Shown here one piece after another: positions 1,654-23,900 of a DNA stretch of 36,081 nt. Position numbers and translations under genes: made by a program. The stretch is taken from assembly GCA_018818165.1 (NCBI GenBank), contig JAHISP010000028.1, positions 1-36,081 on the forward strand, in the 5' to 3' direction. Within the stretch, counting starts at the first letter, position 1; each line of letters opens with the position of its first letter. The notes below the pieces were generated by a model. That model ran no database searches. It was not told where the DNA came from and saw nothing but the letters and a program-made list of their open reading frames with translations. The stretch comes from Bacteroidota bacterium (lineage in GTDB: Bacteria; Bacteroidota; Ignavibacteria; Ignavibacteriales; Melioribacteraceae).

Positions 1654-3078
1654 ATGAAAAAAGGTGATTTTTTAGATTTAAATATTGAAAGCTACGCATT
1701 TGAAGGAAAAGGTCTTGCAAGAGTTCCCGGTGAAGATGGACAAAATTTTGTTGTTTTTGTTAATGGTTCATATCCAGGTGATAAAGTAAAAGTACAAATA
1801 AGAAAAAAGAAACGTTCTTATGCCGAAGCAAAGATTGAAAAAATATTGGTACCATCTAAAGATAGAATTGATGCAAAATGTTCCTATTTTGGAACTTGTG
1901 GTGGTTGTAAACAACAAGATTTAAAATATTCTGTTCAAGTAAAATATAAAGAGGAACAAGTACGTGATGTTTTTGAGAGGCTTGGTGGTTTTGAAAATTT
2001 TGAAATAGAGCCAATAGTTGCCTCAGAAAAGACTTTCTTTTACCGCAATAAAATGGAGTTTTCATTTGCTGATAAACGCTGGTTAACAAAAGATGAAATT
2101 GGTACAAATGGTGAAATTCCAAATAGTAGCTTTGCGCTTGGTATGCATATACCTCGAATTTTTGACAAAGTTTTAGATATTAAAGAGTGTTTTCTTCAAT
2201 CGGATGAAAGTAATAAAATTGTAAATTTTACACGAGAGTTTTTTAAATCAAAAAATGCTTCAATTTATTCAACAAAAATTCATGAAGGTTATCTACGATA
2301 TTTGGTAATTAAACAAGCATCACACACCGATAATTTAATGATAAACCTTGTTACTTCTTCGCAAAATGATGAATGGATGAATGAATATTCGGCAAAATTA
2401 GTTGAACTTGTTCCAACCATTACCACAATTGTAAACAATATTAATACTAAAAAAGCAGCAACAGCTTTTGGCGAGTTTGAAATAAATTATTTTGGGGATG
2501 GATATATTTACGATAATATTGGCGACTATAAATTTAGAATTAGTGCAAACTCGTTTTTTCAAACAAACACAACTCAAGCAGTAAATTTGTACCAAGTGGC
2601 ATTAAATTATGCAGAGCTAAAAGGCAATGAAATAGTTTATGATTTATACTCGGGTGCTGGAACAATATCAATTTTTGTATCTAAAAAAGCCAAACATGTT
2701 TATGCCTTTGAAACGGTTGAAAGTGCAGTTAAAGATGCTAAAAATAACAATAAATTAAATAGCATCAACAACGTAACGCATCTTCAAGCAGATTTAGATA
2801 AATCATTTCTTCCAATAGTTGAACATAAGTCTATTCCAAAACCAGATTTTATTTTACTCGATCCACCAAGAGCTGGAATGAATCCTAAAACAATAAAAGA
2901 TTTGATAGAACTTTCTGCACCCAAAATAGTATATGTTAGCTGCAATCCAGCAACACAAGCTCGCGATATAAAACTACTTGCAGAAGCTGGATATAAATTA
3001 GTAAAAATTACTCCAGTTGATATGTTTCCTCATACATTTCATATCGAAAATGTAGCTTTGCTAATCAAGGGAAAATAA
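1654..3078 (+). CDS. rlmD: 23S rRNA (uracil-C5) methyltransferase, RlmD/RumA type
   Basis: 474 residues. An N-terminal TRAM RNA-binding domain (about 1-60) is followed by the iron-sulfur cluster cysteines C76, C82 and C85 (KCSYFGTCGGCKQQD), with C179 a likely fourth ligand. The C-terminal methyltransferase domain has motif I YDLYSGAGTIS near 330, DPPRAG at 403-408 and the catalytic SCNPAT with C430. This is the RumA/RlmCD/TrmA family, which methylates U1939 or U747 of 23S rRNA; RlmD is the best fit by the cluster and TRAM domain, but the exact uridine cannot be read from sequence. The last codons (ALLIKGK) come from the inserted element: the element joins within a 27-bp core at 3034-3060 and the presumed original end (ALLVK) survives at 10133-10172. 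The enzyme is therefore likely intact. Confidence 0.92.
   Translation: MKKGDFLDLNIESYAFEGKGLARVPGEDGQNFVVFVNGSYPGDKVKVQIRKKKRSYAEAKIEKILVPSKDRIDAKCSYFGTCGGCKQQDLKYSVQVKYKEEQVRDVFERLGGFENFEIEPIVASEKTFFYRNKMEFSFADKRWLTKDEIGTNGEIPNSSFALGMHIPRIFDKVLDIKECFLQSDESNKIVNFTREFFKSKNASIYSTKIHEGYLRYLVIKQASHTDNLMINLVTSSQNDEWMNEYSAKLVELVPTITTIVNNINTKKAATAFGEFEINYFGDGYIYDNIGDYKFRISANSFFQTNTTQAVNLYQVALNYAELKGNEIVYDLYSGAGTISIFVSKKAKHVYAFETVESAVKDAKNNNKLNSINNVTHLQADLDKSFLPIVEHKSIPKPDFILLDPPRAGMNPKTIKDLIELSAPKIVYVSCNPATQARDIKLLAEAGYKLVKITPVDMFPHTFHIENVALLIKGK
3034..3060. other. attL core (left 27-bp repeat)
   Basis: Identical over 27 bases to 10133-10159. Its first 20 bases, ACATTTCATATCGAAAATGT, are a 6-bp inverted repeat (ACATTT/AAATGT) around an 8-bp centre, the usual layout of a tyrosine recombinase crossover site. 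It overlaps the codons for TFHIENVAL of rlmD. Confidence 0.85.
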
Positions 3079-3162
3079 GGGTATATAAAACCAATAAAAC
3101 AAACCAAAATCAAACTATTTATTTTTTCTTGTTTTCACTAAGTTGCTATTATTTGATGTATT

Positions 3163-3181
3163 CTTGTTACCTATTTGTTAC
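3163..3181. promoter_or_regulatory. 19-bp direct repeat near the left end (possible integrase arm site)
   Basis: CTTGTTACCTATTTGTTAC occurs here and identically at 10056-10074, just inside each end of the element. An inverted GGTAACAA lies at 3229-3236 directly before the integrase start, and TTGTTACC recurs at 6630-6637 before the rep gene. The positions suggest arm-type binding sites for the integrase or excisionase, or an operator of the element. Confidence 0.55.
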
Positions 3182-3236
3182 TCGGTTAAATTTTACTTAT
3201 GTTTGGTATAAGTAACAGAAAAGAAAAGGTAACAAA

Positions 3237-4286
3237 GTGCAAATATATTTGAGAAAGAAAAAATTATCAGATGGTAGAGAATCTTTATACTTAGATATAA
3301 ATTCTGATGGTATTAGAAAATATGAATTTTTGAAACTTTATATCAAGAGAGGCAATTCAGAGAATAAAGAGATTTTAATGTTAGCTGAAAAGATAAAATC
3401 TCAAAGATTGATAGACCTATCAAACAAAGAACATAACCAAGTAAGCACTCAAAAGAAAAACACATCATTCCTTAAATACTTTGAAAACTATGTTAATACT
3501 AAAAAGAAATGGTCTAACTATTTTGGTGCATTAAAGCATTTCAAGTTGTTCCTAAATGGTAAGGATATAACTTTCAAACACATTGATAAAGCCTTTTTGG
3601 AAAACTTTGCAGACTATTTGAGTAAGGAAGCAAACTTAAAACAAAGTACAGCATTTCTTTATTTAAGAAAAATAAAAGAGGTTTTATATAAAGCAAGTAA
3701 TGAAAATTTCATAATGGTTGAAACTGTAAGGAGAGCAAAAAGTTTACCAAAGGGTAAAACTGAAAGAGGTTATTTGGAGTTATTTGAAATTGAAAAATTA
3801 GTAAGTGTTGATTATAAAAATTCAGAAATAAAAAGGGCTTTTCTGTTTAGTTGTTTTACAGGGTTAAGGCAATCAGATGTAAGGAATTTGAAATGGTCAG
3901 ATATTAAAAACAATACAATCAGAATAAAGATGCAAAAGGTAAGCAAACCAATTGAAATTCCATTAAGTAAAACAGCCTTAGAGCTTATTAAAACAAACAA
4001 TATTCACCATTTACCGGATGTAAGAGTTTTTGATTTACCTACAGATAGAACTACAATAAATAGACATTTGACAAGATGGTTTAAGTTGGCATGTGTTGAT
4101 AAGAAAGCATTTTATCACTTATCCAGACATACATTTGCAACTTTGAATATTACAAGTGGAAACGACCTTTACACAGTTTCAAAATTGTTAGGGCATAGCA
4201 ATATCAAAACAACAGAAATTTACTCAAAAGTTATTGATGAAAAGAAAAAACAAGCTATTGATAATTTACCAGCGATAAGTCTATGA
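3237..4286 (+). CDS. Tyrosine recombinase / integrase
   Basis: 349 residues from a GTG preceded by AAAAGGTAAC. The N-terminal half holds an arm-binding-type segment and a SAM-like core-binding domain (about 70-165). The catalytic domain shows R211 (TGLRQSD), H294 and R297 (HLSRH), H320 (LLGHSNIKTTEIY) and the nucleophile Y329, i.e. the full R-HxxR-H-Y set. This is the phage-type integrase arrangement common in Bacteroidota elements. It lies just inside attL and should catalyse insertion into and excision from rlmD. Its stop overlaps the next start (ATGA), so the two are translationally coupled. GGTAACAA directly before the start may allow autoregulation. Confidence 0.93.
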   Translation: MQIYLRKKKLSDGRESLYLDINSDGIRKYEFLKLYIKRGNSENKEILMLAEKIKSQRLIDLSNKEHNQVSTQKKNTSFLKYFENYVNTKKKWSNYFGALKHFKLFLNGKDITFKHIDKAFLENFADYLSKEANLKQSTAFLYLRKIKEVLYKASNENFIMVETVRRAKSLPKGKTERGYLELFEIEKLVSVDYKNSEIKRAFLFSCFTGLRQSDVRNLKWSDIKNNTIRIKMQKVSKPIEIPLSKTALELIKTNNIHHLPDVRVFDLPTDRTTINRHLTRWFKLACVDKKAFYHLSRHTFATLNITSGNDLYTVSKLLGHSNIKTTEIYSKVIDEKKKQAIDNLPAISL

Positions 4287-4555
4287 ATGGAACTATAGAT
4301 AATAATTATATTTTGAATGAATCAGGGTTCACCATTGGCGAATTAAAAATTAGCCATACAAGGAATGTAAACATCACAAATAAATATACAAGTGGAAATG
4401 AAAACACAAATGAAATTTTAGTTTTGAAACGAGTAATTGAATTATTGGAATCAACTATCGAGGATAAAAATAAAATTATAGCTGGATATGAAAGATTAAT
4501 GATAGGAAGAAATAGGGGGGAAATGATTAAAGCTAGAGGCTTAAATGGAATTTAA
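4283..4555 (+). CDS. Hypothetical 90-aa protein, coupled to the integrase
   Basis: Starts in the ATGA overlap with the integrase stop. Residues about 1-45 are polar with no clear fold. Residues about 50-75 (VIELLESTIEDKNKIIAGYE) form a likely coiled coil like the C-terminal dimerisation helix of some small phage repressors, and the tail is basic. No DNA-binding helix-turn-helix is obvious. Context suggests a role in the element's integration control, but this is a guess. The next gene starts inside its last four codons. Confidence 0.65.
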   Translation: MNGTIDNNYILNESGFTIGELKISHTRNVNITNKYTSGNENTNEILVLKRVIELLESTIEDKNKIIAGYERLMIGRNRGEMIKARGLNGI

Positions 4556-5354
4556 ATATAATAGCATTGAAAGATATAGGGATATACTTTCAGATTTTGA
4601 TTTGGGAAAAGCATGCAAAGCGGTAACAGTAGTTTTTGATGGTAGTTCGTTGGAAAATGTTGTGTTTACTGAAAATGAATTTTGGGGTTTTATTGAATTA
4701 GTATTAAATATAAAAAGAAAGAAAAAAGGCTATATAAAAAAAATCAAAAATGAAGATTACCTATTATTCCAAAAAGTAATGACTGTTGTTTTTGAGCCTC
4801 AGTATGATAAAGTATTTACAACCAAAGTAAAATTAGTTATAACGAGTTGTTATTTTGATTCGCCATCTTGGTTTCTGGAAAATATCAAATTAAGTTATTT
4901 CCAAATAAAAACTATTAATCTGGAATTGCATAAATATTTTCATTTAGGGTTTTTTATATCAATTTTATCCAACTTTAAAAATCACATGGATGCACAAACA
5001 TTAAAAAAAATATTAAAAGAATTAACCAATAACTTAAGTTATGTTGTAGAAAAACACTTTTTTGATTATCATGAATTAGTAAAGAGTGGGGTACTAATTA
5101 GGGCAAAAGATTTAACTACTATTTATGGAGATGATCATAAATTTTGGCATGCGGTTTCACATCTAAGAACAGATAAAGTTTCTGGTAATAGAAAATATAC
5201 CAATGAAATGTTTGAGCATACAGATACTATACGAAATGATTTTTCAAAGATTACAGATGCATATATGGAAACATTAGTTAAGTTTGATAAAGACCCATTA
5301 GATTTTGATTCATATCGTAAAGGATATAACAGTAGATTCAAAAAAAAGAAATAG
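4545..5354 (+). CDS. Hypothetical 269-aa protein (element-encoded)
   Basis: Begins at ATG 4545, overlapping the previous gene by 11 bases, so int-90aa-269aa look like one transcript. It is a soluble protein with aromatic-rich stretches (FWGFIELVLNIK, YFDSPSWFLENI) and a C-terminal basic tail (RFKKKK). A histidine-containing segment (DDHKFWHAVSHLRTDK) is near 205. I recognise no family. Its place between the integrase and the excisionase-like gene is where small elements often keep cargo or superinfection/defence genes, but the sequence itself gives no function. Confidence 0.65.
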   Translation: MEFKYNSIERYRDILSDFDLGKACKAVTVVFDGSSLENVVFTENEFWGFIELVLNIKRKKKGYIKKIKNEDYLLFQKVMTVVFEPQYDKVFTTKVKLVITSCYFDSPSWFLENIKLSYFQIKTINLELHKYFHLGFFISILSNFKNHMDAQTLKKILKELTNNLSYVVEKHFFDYHELVKSGVLIRAKDLTTIYGDDHKFWHAVSHLRTDKVSGNRKYTNEMFEHTDTIRNDFSKITDAYMETLVKFDKDPLDFDSYRKGYNSRFKKKK

Positions 5355-5473
5355 CCATACTTAAACTCATTCCACTCTCATAAACAAATTTTTGGAAACA
5401 ACTTTCCAGTTTATCTTATTGTTATTTGTTCTATTTGCCTTAGTAATTTCAATAACAAACTAAGGTGAACAAA

Positions 5474-5752
5474 ATGACAGACCAAACAATCATTAACAAA
5501 ATCAATTCTATTGTAGAACAAGATTCAAGACCTTTAACTTTTCAAGAAGCATCAAAGTATCTTGATATTTCAGCATCATATCTTTACAAATTAACATCTA
5601 CTGCAAAAATTTGTCACTTTAAGCCTTCTGGCAAGAAAATTTATTTCAAAAAATCAGATTTACAGGCTTTCTTATTAAGAAACAGAGTAGCATCTCAATC
5701 AGAGCTTGAGCAAAAAGCTATTGATTATGTTAATCTTGGAAAAGGGGTTTAA
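5474..5752 (+). CDS. Excisionase-like helix-turn-helix protein
   Basis: 92 residues from ATG 5474, chosen over a GTG at 5465 because AAGGTG (5462-5467) then sits at normal spacing. Residues about 17-65 (LTFQEASKYLDISASYLYKL ... GKKIYFKKSDLQAFL) match the winged-helix HTH_17/excisionase family: a helix-turn-helix that selects a DNA site, then a wing and a closing helix. Such proteins in Bacteroidota elements act as recombination directionality factors or as regulators of the replication genes. It heads the second cluster of the element. The next gene starts 2 bases after its stop. Confidence 0.85.
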   Translation: MTDQTIINKINSIVEQDSRPLTFQEASKYLDISASYLYKLTSTAKICHFKPSGKKIYFKKSDLQAFLLRNRVASQSELEQKAIDYVNLGKGV

Positions 5753-5753
5753 T

Positions 5754-6047
5754 ATGACAAAAGAGCTTAATCAAGAATTTGATGGCATTGGTGAAGTTAG
5801 AGGCTATTTATTCAAACAGATTCTAAAAAAACCAAAAGCCTATTTGTATGAAGTAACAAACCAAGAAACAGACCAAAAACATTATGAGATATTCAAAAGA
5901 ACTATTTCAAAATTATATGATTTTGGTGCAAAGGAAAGAATTGAGGAAAAAGCAGTTGTTTATCCAAAATCAAAATCATTTGGAATTTGGGCTTGGACTT
6001 CAAAAGATTTTATAAAAGCTGTAGATATTTATGAGTCTCTAACATAG
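5754..6047 (+). CDS. Hypothetical 97-aa protein in the HTH-rep cluster
   Basis: ATG 5754 follows GGGG (5744-5747) at good spacing; an in-frame upstream extension to 5706 would overlap the HTH gene and is less likely. The sequence is compact and basic, with a strand-rich middle (KKPKAYLYEVTNQETDQKHY) and an aromatic end (FGIWAWTSKDFIKA). By position between the HTH and Rep genes it could be a single-stranded DNA-binding or accessory replication protein like gene V of filamentous phages, but I see no diagnostic residues. The function is unknown. Confidence 0.65.
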   Translation: MTKELNQEFDGIGEVRGYLFKQILKKPKAYLYEVTNQETDQKHYEIFKRTISKLYDFGAKERIEEKAVVYPKSKSFGIWAWTSKDFIKAVDIYESLT

Positions 6048-6069
6048 TGATAGAATCAATTATTTATGT

Positions 6070-6096
6070 AAGTGTTTCACCATAGAGGCACTTTTA
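6070..6096 (+). terminator. Short hairpin with T-run
   Basis: AAGTG (6070-6074) pairs with CACTT (6089-6093), followed by TT. A near copy (AAGTGT/ACACTT) lies at 6607-6628. Both follow a stop codon, so they may be weak attenuating terminators that set the expression of each gene separately. Confidence 0.35.
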
Positions 6097-6135
6097 ATGT
6101 AATTAGGTATAAAACCATTGGATAGGAAAAACACA

Positions 6136-6591
6136 ATGAAAATAGATGCTTATTTCAGATTTGAAAGAATAAAATTAGAATCAAAAACAAGATATGATTT
6201 AACATTTAATCAAGGAAGTTATTCCCCATTACAAGAAATAAACAAAAATGGTGAATGTTGGATATATTTTAGCAAAAGTTTATACATACAATTTAAGAGT
6301 AATAGAAAAACAGATTCAGCAATTTCAACTAGAGAAAGACATATTACAAGTGTATTTATTCCAGAGATTGAAAAGCCAAATTTTGGATTTGGTGATTTCG
6401 ATAATGATGCTTTTTTAATAGTTGTAAATGGGACTATTGAAATATTAGTTTTCAAAGGGAAAAAACATATTCAATCAATATTAAATAATTTGTTTTTAGA
6501 TGGTGAATTTGATGAAGCATTAGAGGAATTTAGAACACTTTCCACATTATCAAAAAAGACTCAATTAAATTTGGTGAAAAATGTTGTTTAA
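6136..6591 (+). CDS. Hypothetical 151-aa protein of the element
   Basis: ATG 6136 is preceded by ATAGGAAA; a TTG at 6118 is an unlikely alternative. The protein looks like a mixed alpha/beta domain with many short strands (YDLTFNQGSYSPLQEI, NGECWIYFSKSLYIQFK) and a helical C-terminus. It has no membrane segment and no recognised motif. It is immediately upstream of the Rep-like gene, separated by a small hairpin. The function is unknown. Confidence 0.65.
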   Translation: MKIDAYFRFERIKLESKTRYDLTFNQGSYSPLQEINKNGECWIYFSKSLYIQFKSNRKTDSAISTRERHITSVFIPEIEKPNFGFGDFDNDAFLIVVNGTIEILVFKGKKHIQSILNNLFLDGEFDEALEEFRTLSTLSKKTQLNLVKNVV

Positions 6592-6606
6592 GAGTATCTC
6601 TCTATT

Positions 6607-6637
6607 AAGTGTGTTTGAAGTAACACTTTTTGTTACC
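6607..6637 (+). promoter_or_regulatory. Hairpin plus TTGTTACC motif ahead of rep
   Basis: AAGTGT (6607-6612) pairs with ACACTT (6623-6628) followed by a T-run, and GTAAC (6620-6624) is inverted at GTTAC (6632-6636). TTGTTACC (6630-6637) matches the core of the 19-bp repeats at both ends of the element. The site is 12 bases before the rep start and could be a terminator for the upstream gene, an operator for rep, or both. Confidence 0.45.
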
Positions 6638-6648
6638 AAAGGATAATT

Positions 6649-7560
6649 ATGTTTGATACAATAGGAACATATTATCATACAGAAAATGCTCTAAATACTC
6701 TTAGATATATTTCAGTTAATAATGAAAATATTGATAGACATACAGGAGAAATTGCAACATTTGGGACTCATAAGAATTTAAGAATAAAAGTTATGGGTAA
6801 TTCTGTTTCTATAAATGGAAGTTTGCCAAAATATCTATTTGGTGATAATGTACAAGAACTAACCAGAAAGCACACTCAAGAGGCTATAGAGAGCCTATCA
6901 GATGAATTACATTTACAACTTGATGAATCAAAGCCTTATAGAATTGATGTTGCATCAAATTTCATAATGAAAGAGCCATTGGTTAAATATTATTCAGCAC
7001 TTGAATCATTAGCAAGGTATGAAAAAAAAACCTATAGAGATGGATTCTTATTTACTACAAATAAAATAGCATTAGAATTTTATGACAAAAACAAAGAATT
7101 GCAAAAGAAAAAGCAGCTTATTCCAGAGATATTCCAGAATAGGAATGTTTTGAGGTATGAGATCCATTTGCAAAAGAGGTTACCTGAAATATTCAAGCAA
7201 GATATTTTAGCAAAAGATTTATATGATGCAGATTTTTATATTAAAGCTGTAGATATTTGGAAAGAAAGATATTTTAGTATCAAGAAAAATAGAGTTTTGA
7301 CATTAAATTCAAAGGTAATTAGCATTATGGACTCAAAAACAATATTCAATCAACTTGCATTATTGGGATTGGAACAAGTTGGTCAAGAGAAACTATTAAA
7401 AATGTTGGAATATGAAAGAACAAGCCTTTCAAAGATGCAATTCAAAAGAATCAAGGAGAAAATAAACTCCATTAGTGAGCTTCCAGTACTAACAGAACAA
7501 AGTAACTTTATTCAAGAGCTTGATTCAAAGATAATTCAGAGAGCAAGATATTACAGGTAA
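6649..7560 (+). CDS. Putative replication initiator, filamentous-phage gene II/X (Phage_CRI / Rep_trans) type
   Basis: 303 residues. The opening MFDTI, a central YRIDVASNFIM followed by a helix, then IALEFYDKNKEL and NVLRYEIHLQKRLPEIF follow the order of conserved blocks in phage/plasmid replication proteins of the gene II/X (Phage_CRI) and Rep_trans families, which nick one strand and start rolling-circle replication. The paired tyrosines in KYYSALESLARY (about 107-118) are candidate nicking residues. The assignment is by pattern, not by a search. A hairpin-rich non-coding stretch follows at 7979-8363 and is a natural place for the origin. Together with the integrase it suggests an element with a circular replicating form. 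Confidence 0.6.
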   Translation: MFDTIGTYYHTENALNTLRYISVNNENIDRHTGEIATFGTHKNLRIKVMGNSVSINGSLPKYLFGDNVQELTRKHTQEAIESLSDELHLQLDESKPYRIDVASNFIMKEPLVKYYSALESLARYEKKTYRDGFLFTTNKIALEFYDKNKELQKKKQLIPEIFQNRNVLRYEIHLQKRLPEIFKQDILAKDLYDADFYIKAVDIWKERYFSIKKNRVLTLNSKVISIMDSKTIFNQLALLGLEQVGQEKLLKMLEYERTSLSKMQFKRIKEKINSISELPVLTEQSNFIQELDSKIIQRARYYR

Positions 7561-7674
7561 TTGTTATTATGGGACTTTGGGAAATAAAACAAGAAAAAGA
7601 AGAATAAGTTAAATATATTTAAGCCAAGATTACCAAAATTAAGCAAACAGAAAATAAGTTTAGAGAGGTATTTA

Positions 7675-7833
7675 ATGCATCCTAAAGTAGAGGAATGGAA
7701 CAAGAGACTTGATGACCATGAAGCGAAGTTGAAAGCGATAAGAAGAGTACTTGAGGCAAGAGAAGAACTGCTAAGAAAAAAAAAGAACTTGGCAAAGAAT
7801 GAAAACATGGAAAAACATGAGAAAAAAGATTAA
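7675..7833 (+). CDS. Small highly charged 52-aa protein
   Basis: ATG 7675 follows GAGAGG at about 7-base spacing. The product is almost entirely lysine, glutamate and arginine with heptad-like spacing (EEWNKRLDDHEAKLKAIRRV), a likely single coiled coil. It overlaps the next tiny ORF by 17 bases. It could be a small regulator or an accessory DNA-binding protein of the element. The function is unknown. Confidence 0.45.
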   Translation: MHPKVEEWNKRLDDHEAKLKAIRRVLEAREELLRKKKNLAKNENMEKHEKKD

Positions 7834-7978
7834 ATATAAGATTCAGAAGAGCAAGGTATTTATTCTATTACCGGTAGCTGTTCCTTATGGTAATGAATCT
7901 CAAAGGGATGCAGATAAACGATTAAGAAAATCAATTCATATAATTAGTGGTCAAGTTGATAAAACTAACTATTTTTAG
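7817..7978 (+). CDS. Possible 53-aa basic protein overlapping the previous gene
   Basis: ATG 7817 to TAG 7978 in the +1 frame relative to the previous ORF. The N-terminus is very basic (MRKKIKYKIQKSK), followed by a short hydrophobic run (VFILLPVAVPYGN) and a charged tail. The size and a single hydrophobic stretch recall small phage structural or membrane proteins, but the stretch is short for a membrane helix and the ribosome site is weak. It is a tentative gene. Confidence 0.3.
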   Translation: MRKKIKYKIQKSKVFILLPVAVPYGNESQRDADKRLRKSIHIISGQVDKTNYF

Positions 7979-8048
7979 CTTCTGGTTGCTAAATGCATTA
8001 AAAACGATTAAAATGGCAACAATCACAACCAAAACGGGTTATTGGACA

Positions 8049-8066
8049 GTTAGCTAAAAAGCTAAC
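8049..8066. repeat. Perfect 7-bp hairpin (GTTAGCT-AAAA-AGCTAAC)
   Basis: GTTAGCT (8049-8055), a 4-base A loop and AGCTAAC (8060-8066). It lies in the non-coding stretch after the Rep-like gene. Compact hairpins of this type often present the nick site of rolling-circle replicons; there is no T-run that would make it an ordinary terminator. Confidence 0.6.
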
Positions 8067-8122
8067 AAAAGGAAACATTAAAAGGAAATTATTTAGTAAG
8101 AAATTCTATAAAATAACAGAAA

Positions 8123-8183
8123 AGCCAATATTGGTTTAGTACCACATGGCTACAATTGCCCAAAGGGGAAACCAACTTTGGCT
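8123..8183. repeat. Large imperfect hairpin, candidate replication origin structure
   Basis: AGCCAATATTGGTTT (8123-8137) and AAACCAACTTTGGCT (8169-8183) are inverted copies matching at 13 of 15 positions around a 31-base loop. The loop itself contains CCCAAAGGG. With the hairpin at 8049 it accounts for most of the visible structure in the 7979-8363 gene-free stretch. In filamentous phages and rolling-circle plasmids such hairpins form the origin or packaging signal; that use here is inferred. Confidence 0.5.
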
Positions 8184-8363
8184 ATAAACTCAATATAAAA
8201 CTGAAATGGATTTTACCAAATTGTCACTAAATGCTAACAAAATATAATTCTAAGAAGATTTACAAACCGTCCTACAAAACAAACATTGCCATAATAAGAG
8301 AGAGATTAAGGATTATATTGTGAGTTGCTTTGTAATTATTTCTAAGGCTATAAAGTTTTTTTA

Positions 8364-9920
8364 CTAGCGGTTTCTATACGCATTAAGAACTTCTTGTGCC
8401 TCTTTTGAACCAAGCCGAATTGATTTTTTAATGCACCTTATTGCTTCATCAAAATCACCTTCCGAACCATAAACTAAACCCATATCCAAATAAGCACTTG
8501 CATTATTTGGGTCTAGTTCTATAACTTTTTTAAAGCACATAATTGCTTCATCAAAATCACCTTCCGTCCCATAAGCCAATCCCATATACAAATAAGCATC
8601 AGTGTAATTTGGTGCTATTTCTATAACTTTTTGATAGCATTCAATTGCTTTATCGGCATTATCATTTTTTCCATAAGCATTTCCCATATTGTAATAAGCA
8701 TCTACATAATTTGGGTTTAACTCAATCGCTTTTTGATAGTAAAGAATTGCGTTGTCTAATTCACCCAATTCTTGTGCATTATAACCTTTTTGAAACCAAT
8801 CCGTAGACGTTAACTTATCTGTTCTTTTAGCATAAATTTCCTGCAATTTATCATAGGCAATAGCATTATTTGGATCCAATTCTATAACTTTTTGATAACA
8901 TTCAATTGATTTATCATAATTCCCTTTAAAACTATAAGATAAACCCAAGCTGAGATAAGCAATAATATTGTTTGTGTCCAACTTAATTGCTCTTTGATAA
9001 CATTCAATTGCTTTATCATAATTCCCTTTAATGCTATAAGCTAATCCCATCAAGATATAAGCACTTGCTTCATTTGGGTCTAAATCAATAGTTCTTTGAT
9101 AACATTCAATTGCTTTATCAACATTACCGCTGTTAAAATAAGCATACCCCATATTGTTATAAGCACTTGCATCATTTGGGTCTAAATCTATCGCTTTTTG
9201 ATAACATTCAATTGCTTTATCATACTTCTCTTTGGCACTATAAGCAATTCCCATATTGTAATTAGCAGTTGCATTATTTGGGTCTAAATCTATCGCTTTT
9301 TGATAATAAAGAATGGTATTATCATATTCTTTCATCTCATAAGCATTATATGCTTTCTGAAACCAATCTGAAGCCGACAATTCATCTGAAGTTTTTGCAT
9401 ACTCTAATTGTAAAGCTAGTTTCTCTTTTTCGGTAATTGTCTTGTTAAGCTGTTCTCTAATTCTGGATAATTCGTCACTAGCTAAATTTGCTCTGTTATT
9501 TGCTTCTTCAAGTTGCTTAGTTTTATCTCTATCTTTTGCAATCTCTCCCAACTTATTTTTCACACTATCAATATCAAGAGTAATTTCAGCTTTTATGTAA
9601 AATTTACTTCCATCCCATATTTCATCTAATATTTTTGTTTCGGTTATACCAGCAGTAATACTAATAATTTGGTTATTTGTAAGTTCCTTTATCTCTTTGT
9701 TAGTTTCTGTAGTTTCCATTTCAAAAGTTGATTCAATATAAACTCCAATTTCCTCAAGCAGTATTTTTTTTACTTGATTCAATGCAATTGCTCTTGATGT
9801 AATCTTGCTATCAGCATCACCAACAGTGTGTGTGTATTCCCGAATAAAAGTTTTTTCTTGAGCTAATGAAAAACTTGAAATTAAAAATAACAGAAAAGTG
9901 ATGATAGTTTTTTTAAACAT
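8364..9920 (-). CDS. Secreted TPR-repeat protein with FlgT/LPP20-like N-terminal domain
   Basis: 518 residues, start ATG 9920 behind AGAGGTT. A signal peptide (MFKKTIITFLLFLISSFSLAQ) is followed by a domain (about 22-120) whose pattern, ARA-like helix then EIGVYIES and a strand ending KAEITLD, fits the FlgT N-terminal/LPP20 group of outer-envelope proteins. A coiled coil (about 128-180) leads to nine 34-residue tetratricopeptide repeats plus one partial repeat, many with DLDPNN or ELDPNN ends. Two non-consensus units (ASDWFQKAYNA and STDWFQKGYNA) start two blocks, suggesting a block duplication. It should act as a periplasmic protein-binding scaffold. It lies inside the element but on the opposite strand, as cargo usually does. 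Confidence 0.85.
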   Translation of the reverse strand: MFKKTIITFLLFLISSFSLAQEKTFIREYTHTVGDADSKITSRAIALNQVKKILLEEIGVYIESTFEMETTETNKEIKELTNNQIISITAGITETKILDEIWDGSKFYIKAEITLDIDSVKNKLGEIAKDRDKTKQLEEANNRANLASDELSRIREQLNKTITEKEKLALQLEYAKTSDELSASDWFQKAYNAYEMKEYDNTILYYQKAIDLDPNNATANYNMGIAYSAKEKYDKAIECYQKAIDLDPNDASAYNNMGYAYFNSGNVDKAIECYQRTIDLDPNEASAYILMGLAYSIKGNYDKAIECYQRAIKLDTNNIIAYLSLGLSYSFKGNYDKSIECYQKVIELDPNNAIAYDKLQEIYAKRTDKLTSTDWFQKGYNAQELGELDNAILYYQKAIELNPNYVDAYYNMGNAYGKNDNADKAIECYQKVIEIAPNYTDAYLYMGLAYGTEGDFDEAIMCFKKVIELDPNNASAYLDMGLVYGSEGDFDEAIRCIKKSIRLGSKEAQEVLNAYRNR

Positions 9921-10055
9921 AAATAACCTCTATTTATTACTTTAAATTACAAATAATTTGTTAAAAATAAACTTATTATATTGCCATGTTCTGAAAAAGT
10001 TATTGTCAATAAAAAACAACTTTAAAGGGGTAAGAAAAGGGTAAGATTTTGCAAA

Positions 10056-10074
10056 CTTGTTACCTATTTGTTAC
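10056..10074. promoter_or_regulatory. 19-bp direct repeat near the right end (possible integrase arm site)
   Basis: Exact copy of 3163-3181 in the same orientation, 58 bases inside the attR core. Two GGGTAAG/GGGGTAAG words lie 20-30 bases to its left. No gene is seen between 9921 and 10285; that stretch holds this repeat, the attR core and a short tail. Confidence 0.55.
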
Positions 10075-10132
10075 TTTTAAAACTCACCTACCTTGTAACT
10101 ATATATAATTAGGGTAGTTATATAATATTAAC

Positions 10133-10159
10133 ACATTTCATATCGAAAATGTAGCTTTG
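10133..10159. other. attR core (right 27-bp repeat) with the relic rlmD 3' end
   Basis: Perfect copy of 3034-3060. In the rlmD frame the sequence from here reads TFHIENVALLVK and then TAG at 10170-10172, i.e. a complete RlmD C-terminus. This is the expected remnant when an element enters the 3' end of a gene and supplies a replacement tail. Confidence 0.85.
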
Positions 10160-10285
10160 TTGGTTAAGTAGTTAAAAAACCTAAAATAAAACGACAAGTT
10201 GCGGTTTCTGAGCTCATTCTTAGATCCAGCTCTTTTGCGGGGACACAGGTTTCTGTCTCGGTAAACTACAACATCAATCCTTATA

Positions 10286-11137
10286 TTATTGGATAGCATT
10301 CTCTATTTTCTTTACTATATAACCCTTTTTCTCTAGTTGCTCTATTATATTATCGTTACCAATGATATGACCAGCTCCTACAACAATAAATATTTTTCTC
10401 CCTTCTTCCAACATTGTTACTATTTTATCAGTTATAATTCTATTTCGCTTATATAATAGAGTATCCTTTTGTTTGGGAGAATCACTTGTAAACAATTCTA
10501 TTTTTTCTAGCAACCCCGTTTCATTTCCAAACTTCCAATATTCTACTAATTGTTTTGTTTCTTTCGCAATCACCTTTCTATTATTTAAATAATATACTAA
10601 TCTTTTTTCTGTCTCAATTGAATCAAGTTTTTGAACTTTTTCCATAATTTTTGAATACTCTTCAAAACCATCAATTTTAATGTTTCTCTTTCTAGCCAAA
10701 TAATGAAAATATGCTTCAATACCTTGGCTGTTTTTGAACCCAATTTTATTTAACTCATTTTTTTCAACTTCTTGAATGATTTCAGCTGGTTGTAATTGCA
10801 GTAAGACATTTGAAGGGATTAACAAATCATCTGCAACATTTTTCACTAACTGCAATGTCTCTTCTGAGACATGATTTTTCAATTCAAACGTATCATCCTG
10901 CTTTTGTTTGCTAATGTTTCCTGGTTTCAGCTCCATGAAGAATTCTTCCGAGTCATTAAATTTCTCAATAATATAATTTGGCAAAGGATATATTGACTCA
11001 TCTAAACTATGAAAAGAACCTAAAATATAAACTTCACCGTTTTCACTTTGCACTTCATAAAAAATTGGTGAAATCTCTTTTTCTGAATTACATGAAAAAA
11101 AAACTAGAAATATGATTGTTATTAAAATTGTTCTCAT
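10286..11137 (-). CDS. TraB/GumN-family lipoprotein
   Basis: 283 residues behind an AGGAG site. A lipobox (LVFFSC, C16) marks a lipoprotein. The family's N-terminal motif appears as YILGSFHSLDESIYPLP with H43, an acidic helix FFMELKPGN follows, and the C-terminal IFIVVGAGHIIGNDNIIEQL carries the second conserved GxxH. TraB/GumN/Tiki proteins are proposed metal-dependent proteases or regulators; the bacterial members have no settled role. Upstream on the same strand, 71 bases away, is another lipoprotein gene, so the pair may be one transcript. Confidence 0.85.
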   Translation of the reverse strand: MRTILITIIFLVFFSCNSEKEISPIFYEVQSENGEVYILGSFHSLDESIYPLPNYIIEKFNDSEEFFMELKPGNISKQKQDDTFELKNHVSEETLQLVKNVADDLLIPSNVLLQLQPAEIIQEVEKNELNKIGFKNSQGIEAYFHYLARKRNIKIDGFEEYSKIMEKVQKLDSIETEKRLVYYLNNRKVIAKETKQLVEYWKFGNETGLLEKIELFTSDSPKQKDTLLYKRNRIITDKIVTMLEEGRKIFIVVGAGHIIGNDNIIEQLEKKGYIVKKIENAIQ

Positions 11138-12688: not shown

Positions 12689-12928
12689 AGCACTTACTCC
12701 ACAATAATGCCAACTTAAAAATCAACACTTTCCTTTGCGTCAACATAAATATTTCCACTAATTATAACAACAGCAAATATCAATAATTACGGAGGTATAA
12801 AATGTACACATTCATACTCATTTGCATGGAAAAAGATTTGCAGCTACTTGGTTTATCGGAAAAAGCAAACCATATAATCCACCACATATAAACCTAATAG
12901 CAAATTACAAGTACTTGTACTGAGTTCA
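12664..12928. repeat. 265-bp dispersed repeat, copy 1
   Basis: Closely similar to 14125-14392, same orientation. Shared stretches include CTAAGCCGCAAA, CTCCACAATAATGCCAACTT, the ACGGAGGT segment and AAGTACTTGT. Small indels distinguish the copies. Each copy sits just upstream of a minus-strand single gene (cupin here) and holds a micro-ORF on the plus strand. Confidence 0.8.
12802..12891 (+). CDS. Micro-ORF (29 aa) with perfect Shine-Dalgarno, copy 1
   Basis: ATG 12802 is preceded by ACGGAGGT at ideal spacing, the strongest ribosome site in the window. The peptide starts MYTFILICMEKDLQLLGLSE. The paralog at 14264 starts MYTFILNRMEEDIQMHGLAE and is 35 residues long. The start, the site and the first 20 residues are kept while indels have changed the tail here. 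A small regulatory or toxic peptide is possible; equally it may be a leftover of a longer gene. Confidence 0.4.
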   Translation: MYTFILICMEKDLQLLGLSEKANHIIHHI

Positions 12929-13217
12929 TCGAAGTCGCGGTTGTGGCTGAGCTCTCATGTTTTCCGCACAATATTAAAAAAAGGCTGAAATTAGTTTAAT
13001 TTGAAAAGATATTTCAAAAATGAGTGTAACTAGTTGTTTTGTAAGTGCATTTATAATAAAGGAAAAATATATATTGAAAGTATTTCAGTATGGATTATCT
13101 CAAAATAATATGGCAAATATAAAATCCAAGACAATTGGGTTTTTGATTAAAAACACAAGATAGATTCGTAATATTAATTTTTGTAGTGTTAATAGCAAAC
13201 TTGTAAATGGCAAAGCT

Positions 13218-13481: not shown

Positions 13482-14099
13482 CTATTTATATTTTGCAATC
13501 ATTACTGAAAACAGCATATCATAATTTAATTTATCAGCTCCTTTCATCAACAATCTCTGCTCTTTCAACAGCCTCATTTCATTATTCTCTAATAATCCCT
13601 TGATATAATCAGGTGAATGTTTGAAGATAGGAACGCCCCAAGCTGTCATTTGCTGACTATATTCATTTGCATAATTGTCTGGTGCTATTGCAAAGCCGAA
13701 TATTCCTCCTTTTTGTAACACTCTTGCCACATCTGAAAACACATTTTTCAAATCACTAAGGAAATGGAATACACCGCAACAAATTATATGGTTAAAAGAA
13801 TTGTCATTATATGGTATGTTGTCGTCTGATAATTTATGAAGCTTTAACTCTTCTGTGAATGCTTTATTTCTGCAAAGGTTTAACATATCCTCTGCAATAT
13901 CCAAACCGTAAACTTTCAATCCAATCTTAGAAAATTTAATTGATGCCAAGCCAGTTCCTATTCCAAGATCAAGTATTTTCTCATTTGGTTTAACATATTC
14001 ATAACACATTCCAAATATCACATCGTGCCCATAACTATCATATTCTTTTACTTGTTCATCATATTGACTTGCTATTTCTTTATAATCATATTCATTCAT
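13482..14099 (-). CDS. SAM-dependent methyltransferase (Methyltransf_11/25 type)
   Basis: 205 residues from ATG 14099 behind GGAG; a TTG at 14114 would lie on the ribosome site and is not used. Motif I is ILDLGIGTGLAS, motif II ends with the acidic GLDIAEDML, motif IV is NHIICCGVFHFLSD, and VLQKGGIFGFAI follows. All SAM-binding elements look intact. The family methylates small molecules; the substrate is not readable from sequence. It stands alone as a single-gene unit, preceded by copy 2 of the 265-bp repeat, which fits a cassette-like origin. Confidence 0.88.
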   Translation of the reverse strand: MNEYDYKEIASQYDEQVKEYDSYGHDVIFGMCYEYVKPNEKILDLGIGTGLASIKFSKIGLKVYGLDIAEDMLNLCRNKAFTEELKLHKLSDDNIPYNDNSFNHIICCGVFHFLSDLKNVFSDVARVLQKGGIFGFAIAPDNYANEYSQQMTAWGVPIFKHSPDYIKGLLENNEMRLLKEQRLLMKGADKLNYDMLFSVMIAKYK

Positions 14100-17802: not shown

Positions 17803-19320
17803 ATGAAAAGATATACTAATACCGAACTTGAAAATTTGCTTAATGATATTGAATCTGATATAGCAGAAAGAAAAGAATCCTTTAAAGGAGATGTACCTAA
17901 AAAGGCACGACAAGCTGTTTGTGCTTTTGCTAATGATATTTCAAACCGAAATAAAGCCGGTGTTCTATTTATTGGAGCAAAAGATGATGGAACTCCATCT
18001 AATGAACCAATAACGGATCAACTGCTTCTTTCATTAGCCAATATTAAAACTGATGGTAATATTCTTCCTCTTCCGGTTTTATCGGTTGAAAAAATAAGAC
18101 TTAAAAATGCAGATATGGCAGTTGTAACCGTTATGCCTTCTGATATGCCCCCTGTAAAATATGATGGTAGAATTTGGGTTAGAACTGGTCCAAGACGTTC
18201 AATTGCAAATGAACAAGAAGAGCGTCTTTTAATAGAAAGGAGAAGGTTTAAAACTTTACCTTATGATCTTAACCCTGTTCCATCAGCTAAATTAAGTGAT
18301 TTAAGCAAAGTATTTTTTGAAGAAGAATATATATCAAACTCCTTTTCACAAGATGTTATTGAATCAAAAGACCGAAGTTATGAAGAACTCCTTGCTAGTA
18401 GCAGAATGATAGTTTCACCCGATGAACCCACACCAACAGTTGTTGGCATTTTAACATTAGGTAAAAATCCTCAAACGTTTATTCCAGGTGCGGCTATTCA
18501 GTTTTTAAGAATTAAAGGAACTAAGTGGGGAGACCCAATAATTGATGAAGAAAAAATTAACGGTAATCTAAAAAAGCAAATTGAAAAGCTGGATCAAAAA
18601 CTTGTTGCTCATAATCGTGTTACTGTTGAATTTTCATCTTCACCGACAGAAATTAGAAGGTTTTCTTATCCAATATCTGCATTACAACAACTTACACGTA
18701 ATGCGGTTATGCACCGTAGTTACGAAGGCACAAATGCTCCAATTATGGTTTATTGGTTTGATGATAGAATTGAAATTAGTAATGCCGGTGGTGCTTTTGG
18801 AAGAGTTACGCCTGAAACTTTTGGGAAACCAGGATATGCCGATTACAGAAACCCCAATATTGCAGTTAGTATGAAAATTCTTCGTTTTGTTCAGCAGTTT
18901 GGATTTGGTATTCAATTGGCTCAAAGGGAATTAGTTGAAAATGGAAATCCACTTGCAGAATTTAAGGTGGAAACAACATCCGTTCTTTGTACTATAAAAG
19001 AAAGCATATTTACTAAAAAATTAGAACATGAGCCCGAGTCACGGCCCGAGTCACGGCCCGAGTCACGGCCCGAGTCACAAATTGAATCAAGTATGGCTCA
19101 GAAAGTAATTTTATTATTACAAAAAGAGCAAATGAGTAAATTAGAGTTAGCACATGGACTTGGTCATAAAGGTGTTTCGGGTGAGCTAAAAAAACAGATT
19201 AAGTCACTTGTTGTTGGCGAGTTTATTGAATTTACTATTCCCGAAAAGCCAAACAGCCGTTTGCAAAAATACCGTCTTACTGAAAAAGGGGAAAAAATAT
19301 TAAAAAATATACGTAAATAG
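17803..19320 (+). CDS. AlbA_2-domain ATP-binding protein with C-terminal winged helix
   Basis: 505 residues. Residues about 1-130 form an AlbA_2 (Schlafen-like) domain: ERKESFKGDVPKKARQAVCA, NRNKAGVLFIGAKDDG, GRIWVRTGPRRSIA. A GHKL-type ATPase-like region follows (about 280-390) with LTRNAVMHRSYEG, IEISNAGGAFG and a glycine-rich end. A linker with PESR repeated three times plus PESQ precedes a winged helix (about 425-505). The family is common beside type I restriction genes and in defence islands, where it is thought to be regulatory. It is intact and stands between two copies of a restriction-gene remnant. Confidence 0.85.
   Translation: MKRYTNTELENLLNDIESDIAERKESFKGDVPKKARQAVCAFANDISNRNKAGVLFIGAKDDGTPSNEPITDQLLLSLANIKTDGNILPLPVLSVEKIRLKNADMAVVTVMPSDMPPVKYDGRIWVRTGPRRSIANEQEERLLIERRRFKTLPYDLNPVPSAKLSDLSKVFFEEEYISNSFSQDVIESKDRSYEELLASSRMIVSPDEPTPTVVGILTLGKNPQTFIPGAAIQFLRIKGTKWGDPIIDEEKINGNLKKQIEKLDQKLVAHNRVTVEFSSSPTEIRRFSYPISALQQLTRNAVMHRSYEGTNAPIMVYWFDDRIEISNAGGAFGRVTPETFGKPGYADYRNPNIAVSMKILRFVQQFGFGIQLAQRELVENGNPLAEFKVETTSVLCTIKESIFTKKLEHEPESRPESRPESRPESQIESSMAQKVILLLQKEQMSKLELAHGLGHKGVSGELKKQIKSLVVGEFIEFTIPEKPNSRLQKYRLTEKGEKILKNIRK
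19033..19080 (+). repeat. 12-bp tandem repeat, four units (PESR linker)
   Basis: CCCGAGTCACGG occurs three times in a row and once as CCCGAGTCACAA, in frame, encoding PESR-PESR-PESR-PESQ. A gain or loss of whole units would change linker length without breaking the frame. The GC content contrasts sharply with the surrounding gene. Confidence 0.9.
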
Positions 19321-20986: not shown

Positions 20987-23900
20987 ATGGAAAATATGAT
21001 AGCAACTCAATTAGAAAACAGTCGCAAAGATTTGCTTGATTTAGGTTTACGAAATACTCTTCTAAATTTCAGAACAAAGAAAAACAAAGTTGAAGTTGTT
21101 GATGAAATATCTAAAGAAATATATCAGATTTTAGTTCAACAAAATAAAAAGATGAGATTCAAACCTATTCCAAAAGAAATTCTTGAGAATAAAGAATAAA
21201 GTATTAATGGCATTCTTGATGTAGCTGAAAATGACTGGTCTGCAATATTTGCTCAAGAAGAGGAAAGCACAAACGGCAATGGAGCTTCAACACGTCATAC
21301 TGACTCATATTTACAAACCAAACTGGATGCCAGCAACCTTCATGCAAGACTTCTAACCATGCATAATAATGCCCGAACAATGATTCAAGAGCAAGGTGTA
21401 AATATTCTGTATTTAGCTCTTGGCTTTATGCATTGGTATGATTCTGATACATCTGATACTGCAAGAAAAGCGCCTTTAATTCTAATTCCAGTGACTTTGG
21501 AAAGACTCAGCGCCAAAGAAAGGTTTAGTGTAAATTACTCTGGTGAAGATGTGGGAACAAATTTGTCATTAGAGGAAAAGTTGAAGGCACAGTATAGCAT
21601 TAAACTACCAGAAATTGAGAGTTTTGAAGACTTAGATATAGAAGAATATTTTAGGAAAGTTCAAAAGAAGATTGGTGGACAAACAAATTGGGTAGTTAAA
21701 AATGATGAAATAGTGCTAGGATTCTTCTCATTTGGTAAGTTTTTGATGTACAAAGATTTAGATAGAAACATTTGGTCTGAAGATAATCTACCAGAGAATC
21801 ATGATATTCTACAAGCATTATTAGGTGACGGATTCAAAAATATAACTTCCATATTAGCAGATGATACAAAGATAGACGAAATAATTGAACCTGATAAAAC
21901 CAACCAGATAGTTGATGCTGATAGCACACAAATATTAGCCATTTTGGACGTAAATGCTGGACATAATTTAGTTATTCAAGGGCCTCCTGGAACTGGCAAA
22001 TCACAAACCATTACTAATATTATCTCAGAAGCACTTGGGCAAGGGAAGAAAGTATTATTTGTAGCAGAAAAAATGGCTGCATTAGAGGTAGTTAAAAGAA
22101 GGTTGGATAATACTGGATTGGGCGACGCTGTTTTAGAACTGCATAGCCATAAAGTAAATAAACGAATTGTAATTGATGAATTAGCTAGAACTTTAGAATT
22201 AGGTGCGCCAAATCATTTAGATAACACAGCAGAAATGGAAACACTTGTTGAATACAGAAATGCGCTGAACAATTATAGTCAAATTATAAATTCTCCAATT
22301 ATGAAATCGGGTATTACATTTATTAAAGCGATCGGAAAGATGCAATTTATTGGTGATGTATATCTCAGTTGGCCTAAAATTGATTTTTCTAAGATGCGAG
22401 ATTGGGAAAAACATGATTTTATATCGATTAGAAACAGAGTCGCAGATTTAGAAAAAAGATTGCATACTATCGGTATTCCTGAAGAAAACTCATTTTGGGG
22501 ATCTGATAAAAAAATATTATTCCAAGATGAAAAGGAGAAAATAAAGAATAGTATTAATGAAAATTTGACCAATACAAATAGTCTTAAAGAACGTATAGAA
22601 AAACTAATTCAAGGTCTAAGTTTAGATTTGCCTCTAAATAATAAAGAAGCAATAGTACTTTGTAATACTTGTGAGAGTATGATAAGCGCCCCTGTATTAA
22701 GAGATATTGATGTGAGTAATCCATATTGGAAAGATAATGCCCAAGAGATTGCTATGGCTGTTGAATCTGGAAAGATAATAACTAATCTATTAAGCAAATA
22801 TAACCAGTACTTACTTGACCACGCTTGGGATGCTGATATTCTCTACGAAAGACAACAAATATTACAATATAGATCTAAATGGTGGCGAATTCTATCAAAG
22901 AAATATCGAACTTCAAGAAGTACAATAAAATCACTTTGTAAAACAAATACTTCAGTTGAACCTCATTTTCAATTGGAATTAGCCGATTCAATTATAAGTT
23001 ATAAAAAGCATTTTAAAGTTTATTCTGAGCACGAAAAAATTGGGCACTCTATTCTAAAATCTTATTGGAAAGGATTAAGAACAGATTGGGATAAGATTAA
23101 TTATATAATTAAGTTGATTCATGAGCTTTATAATGAAATTGCTTCTGGAAATATTCAAGAAAAAGTATTAGAGAACTTAACTGACTCCAAAAGTAATCTT
23201 AATATCAATGATGTCAACGATTTAAAGCATTTTATTAATGCACAAATGCAAGATTTAATTCAGCTTGAGAATGAACTCGAAATATCTGGGAATAATTCTG
23301 ATGAATATAAATCAATAAATAAGCTAGACTACAAGGATCAAATAGATAGATTGACTGAATGGTTTGATAACTTTAGTGATTTTGAAAATTTGGTTCATTA
23401 TAATACTCTGAGAGAAGAGTTTAAATATCTTAATCTTAAATTTATTCTCGAAGTATCGGATTCATGGAAGGAAGCATCAATAAATCTTGTAAATTGTTTT
23501 GACGCTTCATGGTACAACGGTTTGCTCCAAGAAGCTTACAAGACGAATAAAGAACTCTACCAGTTTAATAGGGATTCACATGAATTGAAGATTAAAAGAT
23601 TCAGAGAACTTGATACTTTATTATTCAAATACAACCAAGTGAAAATTATATCTAAACACTGGGATGAACTGCCTAATTTATCTCAAAGTGGAGGAGAATT
23701 AACTATACTCAAAAAAGAGATAAACAAAAAGAGGGGACTTAAACCGATAAGGCAATTGATGAGTGAAGCTGGCAATGTGATTCAAGCCATAAAACCAGTA
23801 TTTATGATGGGACCACTTTCTATAGCAAACTTTATTTCGCCACAAAGTGTAAAATTTGATCTTATTATATTTGATGAGGCTAGTCAGGTTAAACCAATAG

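Follow-up and report, generated by a model that had tools for sequence, protein, structure and literature searches.

A 7.1-kb integrative element at the 3' end of rlmD in a Bacteroidota bacterium, possibly a phage satellite with a rolling-circle-type replication protein

What has settled at the 3' end of rlmD in this bacterium, and what has become of the gene that received it? The window (the whole stretch analysed, 36,081 nucleotides, contig JAHISP010000028.1 of assembly GCA_018818165.1, from a member of Melioribacteraceae, order Ignavibacteriales, phylum Bacteroidota) carries in the last codons of this gene one boundary of a small integrated element, whose other boundary lies about 7.1 kb downstream. 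From our analysis it would be logical to suggest a rolling-circle, phage-satellite-like integrative element that belongs to a small family, in which genes for an integrase (Int), a helix-turn-helix (HTH) protein and a replication initiator (Rep) follow one another; we put the probability of this reading at roughly 0.55.

The insertion site at rlmD

A preliminary description of this DNA had placed a perfect 27-bp direct repeat on both sides of the element and had assigned an ALLIKGK-stop ending to the left copy and an ALLVK-stop ending to the right one. Direct reading and repeat searches bear this out: the repeat, ACATTTCATATCGAAAATGTAGCTTTG, lies at 3034-3060 and 10133-10159, and the frames read ...HIENVALLIKGK-stop at the left copy, within the last codons of rlmD, and ...HIENVALLVK-stop at the right one. 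The start-to-start spacing is 7,099 bp, which would be the size of the excised circle. The features of the site are as follows.

1654..3078, + strand: rlmD (23S rRNA U1939 methyltransferase), host gene, with its end formed by element-supplied codons CTAATCAAGGGAAAATAA (TIGR00479 rumA/RlmD, E 4.7e-111; frame reading)
3034..3060, + strand: left attachment core, 27 bp, with an imperfect inverted repeat ACATTT..AAATGT (repeat searches)
3061..3078, + strand: element-borne replacement rlmD end (LIKGK-stop), 17 of 18 nt the same in the element of genome G493 (direct reading)
3163..3182, + strand: inner direct repeat, left, candidate integrase arm-type site (also in locus L053; a 3-mismatch form in G493)
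10056..10075, + strand: inner direct repeat, right, candidate integrase arm-type site (repeat search)
10133..10159, + strand: right attachment core, 27 bp (repeat searches)
10160..10171, + strand: displaced native rlmD end (LVK-stop), matching the rlmD end of genome G004

An imperfect inverted repeat inside the core is an expected feature of tyrosine-recombinase core sites. The inner repeat, CTTGTTACCTATTTGTTACT, is 20 bp long and stands just within each end of the element, and its 16-bp core occurs at these two sites only in the 4.9-Mb genome, one mismatch being allowed. Fifty order-2 Markov surrogates of the whole window gave a longest exact direct repeat of 18 bp (mean 15.9). Longer exact repeats of other kinds do occur in the window, namely repeats coding for tetratricopeptide repeats (TPR) within the cargo gene, tandem arrays at about 520-785 and 19032-19078, and duplicated blocks outside the element at 17208-17539/19475-19806 and 12697-12820/14158-14282, so that the 27-bp repeat is notable by its place and context and not as the longest one. 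A tRNA gene as the integration target was ruled out, the search of the window having found no tRNA gene.

Which of the two endings is native can be judged from the same genus, where rlmD ends in ALLVKV (G003), ALLVRE (G001) and ALLVK (G004); in a further genome, G002, rlmD was not found. The G004 end shares 20 identical nt with the right junction of the window, GCTTTGTTGGTTAAGTAGTT, stop codon included, and G004 lacks this integrase, which supports ALLVK as the original ending and ALLIKGK as the one supplied by the element. The expectation that element-free relatives would end in ALLVK held for G004, but a true empty site followed by the window's own right flank was found at none of the loci examined, and past the rlmD end no DNA similarity to the right flank appeared in three same-genus loci, of which two are only 1.8 and 3.0 kb long. 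Neither element-free relatives ending in ALLIKGK nor rlmD copies lacking the right repeat, both named beforehand as evidence against an insertion, turned up among the loci examined; the sole other ALLIKGK rlmD seen, in G493, carries the element. An ALLIK ending by itself is not diagnostic of the element, since the native rlmD of L012 and of L026 ends in ALLIKE and no such integrase lies within 1.5 kb of it.

Among the best 30 rlmD loci (51 of 58 genomes, own included, have a match), only the window and G041 possess this integrase type in the stretch of up to 1.5 kb that follows the gene, 3 of the 30 having less than 600 nt downstream and being hardly able to reveal it. A DNA pattern made from the RlmD end matched 27 of 164 genomes of the order, twice only in the window's genome, and is too strict for counting insertions.

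Two further genomes show peculiarities at the same place. About 40 nt past the rlmD stop of G004 (locus L059, 1563-1607) there is a 45-bp stretch, 93% identical and inverted relative to the right element end (10030-10074), possibly a scar that an older insertion left there. In G048 (locus L057, about 12850-13018 and 13749-13892) two extra diverged rlmD 3' ends lie downstream of rlmD, one of them with 83% identity to the rlmD of that genome over 105 nt; small genes separate these copies, no integrase was recognised among them by eye, and this may be a hotspot of repeated insertion. As far as these loci were read, the extra rlmD 3' fragments of G048 and of G037 do not represent the element described here.

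Relatives of the integrase point to the same site in other genera. At E 1e-40 the integrase has matches in 13 of 160 genomes of the order, and identity of at least 67% is reached by three proteins only, those of the window, of G041 (69%) and of G493 (67%), all encoded directly 3' of rlmD; G041 and G493 represent two other genera of the order. Eleven more distant matches show 34-45% identity, and none of the seven that were fetched (G031, G457, G044 and G051 were left out) has rlmD in the fetched DNA. Among named genomes, a scan with the integrase found two distant integrases besides the G041 element (L092); in the window's genome there is no second copy of the element, the other six integrase matches being 26-36% identical.

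The G493 element is complete. Its rlmD ends in ALLIKGK-stop; a 17-bp repeat, CATATAGAAAATGTAGC, stands there, and its second copy, 6.3 kb further downstream, reads on into ALLSLQK-stop. Inner repeats occur in a degenerate form. Between the window (CTAATCAAGGGAAAATAA) and G493 (CTAATCAAAGGAAAATAA) the tail supplied by the element is almost the same, although the displaced native tails differ. The right junction of the G041 element lies beyond the end of its contig, the public JACZTL010000006.1 from a Bacteroidetes metagenome-assembled genome. The same element was thus met elsewhere, as had been proposed, with both junctions in G493, and the reading as a site-specific element gains support from the tyrosine integrase next to the left repeat and from the same integrase type and site in two other genera.

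These data suggest that Int would recombine the chromosomal 3' end of rlmD with the copy of it that the element carries, within CATATCGAAAATGTAGC, upon which rlmD would keep an intact frame with an element-derived tail and the native tail would come to lie at the far end. Integration into rlmD with in-frame replacement of its end is, on the grounds of sequence comparison, well supported, and the intact reading frame suggests that RlmD remains functional.

The preliminary description was right to regard an rRNA-methyltransferase gene as an uncommon target, but precedents for rlmD/rumA have been published in Firmicutes (here and below the papers are cited from excerpts). The RumA/RlmD site is used by streptococcal integrative and conjugative elements and integrative mobilisable elements (IMEs) with serine integrases (PMC4701971, PMC5704250) and by prophages of Erysipelothrix and other Gram-positive bacteria (PMC12785378), so the site alone is not new. 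The target gene is what the streptococcal rumA elements and the rlmD-flanked Erysipelothrix prophages have in common with the window element (PMC4701971, PMC12785378); in the former, as described in these excerpts, a serine integrase changes the C-terminus and frame of RumA, whereas here a tyrosine integrase supplies an in-frame tail as a replacement.

Element genes and the replication protein

The reading frames of the element and the candidate origin are listed below.

3237..4286, + strand: tyrosine integrase, 349 aa, GTG start (PF00589 E 1.5e-22, PF13102, PF17293; R211, H294/R297, H320, Y329)
4283..4555, + strand: small open reading frame (ORF), 90 aa, no family over cut-off
4545..5354, + strand: ORF of 269 aa between int and the HTH gene, with a distant relative in the G013 element
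5474..5752, + strand: excisionase-type HTH protein, 92 aa (HTH_17 PF12728 E 1.1e-11; TIGR01764 excise E 2.5e-9)
5754..6047, + strand: ORF of 97 aa, no family recognised in profile searches
6136..6591, + strand: orf157, 151 aa, with relatives, 22-45% identical, that directly precede rep in six other aligned members
6649..7560, + strand: Rep, predicted rolling-circle initiator of Phage_CRI/Rep_trans type (PF05144 E 1.8e-12; fold; residues)
7834..8340, no strand: candidate replication origin, a stretch in which no ORF reaches 60 aa and which holds a 15-nt imperfect inverted repeat (8123-8137/8169-8183)
8364..9920, - strand: cargo gene for a 518-aa TPR protein with a signal-peptide-like start, seen by eye (PF00515 E 1.4e-89, other TPR families)

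The integrase is complete and adjoins one end of the element, its start lying 177 bp past the left repeat and the attachment core outside int; the arm-binding, SAM-like and catalytic domains are all present, and we take R211, H294/R297, H320 and Y329 to be its catalytic residues. The model of orf157 is beta-rich (pLDDT, the model's confidence score, 68.5), with no known fold recognised (best match E 0.42). Against the PADLOC defence models the cargo protein gave weak matches only, in its TPR repeats, and a PrimPol match also falls within repeats; profile searches of the element ORFs found no match to a primase. Promoter-like sites are no commoner than in shuffled sequences.

The nature of Rep is central to any account of this element. 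Its match to Rep_trans (PF02486, 1.2e-4) is below the cut-off of that family, and a sequence search against PDB found no relative (best E 1.1); RepDE was found by fold comparison only. The AlphaFold2 model (pLDDT 81.5) is closest to RepDE (4cwe, 4cwc) and RepSTK1 (4cij), with Z of 12.4, 12.1 and 10.9, the next chains being TBP at Z 6.8. The motifs listed for RepD/RepSTK1-type initiators, in the excerpt used, of a review (PMC5714925) can be mapped as N' D3, I R98xD100, III Y145xK147xxE150 and IV R169xE171; motif I is missing in the Rep of L097 and L178. Motif II, where 9 of 10 aligned sequences have a tyrosine, reads F135 in the window, a replacement also found in other members, such as G013. 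Judging by the modelled fold and the catalytic residues, Rep is probably a rolling-circle initiator. Searches with Rep gave one weak Parabacteroides match among plasmids, and in IMG/VR nothing with the single protein and four loci with the alignment, Rep-bearing contigs being also obtained by a scan with the integrase.

Relatives in Bacteroidota and the satellite question

The gene order Int, (ORF), HTH, (orf157), Rep recurs across Bacteroidota. A Rep profile at E 1e-6 matched 7 of 160 genomes of the order and 17 of 395 of the phylum, the weakest of these being distant and some without the full gene order. Exact repeats of at least 16 bp, 4.0-8.1 kb apart, bracket 8 of the 20 element loci examined, of which G041, L118, L123 and L125 are at or near contig ends and perhaps unable to show a repeat. 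The bracketed sites are rlmD (2), nqrF, tRNA-Met, tRNA-Arg, tRNA-Ser, tmRNA and one unassigned site, and at L063, L064, L068 and L123, loci of the same Int-HTH-Rep type, Int stands directly after the mnmE 3' end; mnmE and nqrF were identified by curated models.

A part of these elements carries a phage gene for DNA packaging, that of the small terminase (TerS). Twelve members with at least one ORF after rep were scanned, some with one ORF only (left out were at least G049, G160, G498, G090, L118 and L178), and four of them encode such a protein: G205 (phrog_309, 3.2e-13), G234 and G101 (phrog_6299, 4.5e-16 and 6.3e-19), all directly after rep, and L097/L179 (phrog_309, 3.5e-27), as the fourth gene after rep. 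The G205 protein resembles an annotated TerS located beside the large terminase (TerL) of Flavobacterium phage 1/32, and the whole G205 element, complete in 4.4 kb, consists of Int, HTH, Rep, TerS and one ORF without a phage match, with no head or tail gene. L123 and L125 have a different ORF instead, which in its L123 form matches Bacteroides phage proteins, one of them annotated DUF5681. The 4.3-kb virome record MT839454.1, with a similar TerS, was not counted as a member, since it is absent from the phage-record matches of Rep and has an ORF that looks terminase-like by eye.

The phage satellites described so far are mostly from Proteobacteria and Firmicutes. The window element shows the gene set of a satellite, that is int, an AlpA/Xis-type regulator and its own replication gene, without head or tail genes, and the satellite reading leans on the terminases of its relatives and on a precedent in Vibrionaceae. 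Phage-inducible chromosomal islands (PICIs) possess attachment sites, int, a regulator, replication genes and sometimes terS (PMC6092414), and the window element resembles them as a small integrated unit with specific attachment sites, int, an AlpA/Xis-type regulator and a replication gene. It differs from what the excerpt of the same paper describes in having a Rep_trans/Phage_CRI rolling-circle initiator in place of the primase/Rep module, in the lack of a recognisable terS in the window copy (terS occurs in some PICIs only) and in its host phylum, the words 'Bacteroides' and 'Bacteroidetes' being absent from the text of PMC6092414 that was available. The phage-inducible chromosomal minimalist islands (PICMIs) of Vibrionaceae carry int, alpA and a primase, are copied by the rolling-circle mode, and are packaged as concatemers although no terS is recognisable in them (PMC10803314); reduced gene content and the lack of a recognised terS are thus common to PICMIs and the window copy. 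Unlike PICMIs, which in that account are placed next to fis, our element has the rlmD site, a Rep_trans initiator and no primase match.

Under the satellite reading, the HTH protein may act as an excisionase or regulator, the 7,099-bp circle would be copied by Rep via rolling-circle replication, and the copies would be packaged into the particles of a helper phage, steered by the small terminase where one is encoded and, in the window copy with no recognised terminase, through the terminase of the helper, as in PICMIs. For the HTH protein and Rep these roles are inferred from protein family, modelled fold and the residues of the active site. Possible helpers exist in the same genome (G000): contig C101 has a tailed-phage head region in which TerS, TerL, portal, protease and major head protein are encoded, and contig C7 a second, related one (portal, major head protein) whose terminase gene is interrupted (L217, L218); terminase family PF03354 has no match in this genome and PF03237 matches twice.

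A number of observations weigh against the satellite reading. The link to both head regions is one of co-occurrence only. No small terminase was recognised in the window element, and no convincing TerS was found in 8 of the 12 members scanned (window, G041, G493, L123, L125, G320, G108, G013). The HTH gene which follows rep in G041 and G493 is marginally TerS-like in G041 (phrog_4102, E 0.095) and not at all in G493; the G041 protein has no match in phage records, and neither protein has relatives in IMG/VR. Phage records searched with the Rep proteins of the window and of L118 gave no match (E 0.01). L097/L179, counted above among the terminase carriers, also possesses a tape-measure-like gene and could therefore be a prophage remnant and not a satellite. 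Finally, proteins of Rep_trans type also serve as relaxases (PMC5704250, excerpt), so that Rep does not separate a satellite from an IME.

This last point leads to the alternative of an IME, which we consider unlikely, where Rep would nick an origin of transfer (oriT) of the excised DNA as a MobT-like relaxase and a conjugative system would act in trans. The Rep_trans/Phage_CRI fold fits such a role, streptococcal IMEs are known to combine Rep_trans relaxases with tyrosine integrases, which insert, as here, at conserved gene ends (PMC5704250), and members such as G049 end soon past rep with no terminase gene seen. However, phage small terminases occur in four members of the family, the streptococcal elements belong to another phylum, and no mobilisation partner was detected: the coupling protein PF02534 was not found in the window's genome (one family, draft assembly), and no oriT turned up, although no search aimed at oriT was made. 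Moreover, the excerpt of PMC5704250 attributes canonical relaxases, such as MobP, to the Bacteroidetes IMEs known so far.

A defective or decaying element, integrated and immobile, which has lost a packaging gene and gained the TPR cargo, seems to us improbable. The rlmD relatives in G041 and G493 possess, behind rep, an HTH gene of 134-154 aa that is missing from the window element, and the change of the nearly invariant motif-II tyrosine might be taken as a sign of decay. Nevertheless this change is shared by other members, the frames of Int, HTH, orf157 and Rep are uninterrupted, the cores and inner repeats are perfect, and Rep has, in our mapping, the catalytic tyrosine and the three metal-binding acids that belong to the literature motifs. 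An integrated filamentous (inovirus-like) phage, suggested by PF05144 as the family of phage G2P replication proteins, is very improbable, with no assembly ATPase, coat or other morphogenesis family among the element ORFs tested and no Rep relative in phage records at the threshold given above.

Beyond the window, we would suggest tentatively, and with somewhat less than even confidence, that Bacteroidota as a whole harbour undescribed minimal satellites of about 4-8 kb, built of Int, an AlpA/Xis-like HTH protein and a RepD-like initiator with exchangeable small terminases, and that one branch, conserved between genera, has specialised on the rlmD 3' end and brings its own replacement end. Among open-licence papers, which is weak evidence, we found no description of an rlmD-targeting tyrosine integrase of this kind or of a Rep_trans satellite family in Bacteroidota; the Charybdis elements (PMC12324425) differ, no replication gene having been recognised in them by their authors, according to the excerpt. 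If true, Int-HTH-Rep elements with terminases would bring satellites to a phylum that is dominant in the environment and in the gut, and would do so with another kind of replication engine; their sites include tRNA and tmRNA genes and also the conserved ends of rlmD, mnmE and nqrF. The rlmD branch would be a clean case of a mobile element that makes up for the displaced gene end with one of its own, and gives a new integrase/attB pair.

Surroundings in the window

Outside the element, the tandem array at 520-785, with 21/42/84-bp units, lies upstream of the methyltransferase gene. On the right side, the protein encoded at 10286-11137 has no second copy in the genome, and the duplicated blocks mentioned above are near-perfect, with exact pieces up to 84 bp (17208-17539/19475-19806) and 57 bp (12697-12820/14158-14282); they possibly mark other insertions or duplications. 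Further downstream, a 143-aa fragment at 26423-26854 matches the C-terminal part of IS481/IS3-type transposase models, and a 1456-aa protein at 21359-25729 has a PADLOC match to the candidate defence family PDC-S37 (1795 bits).

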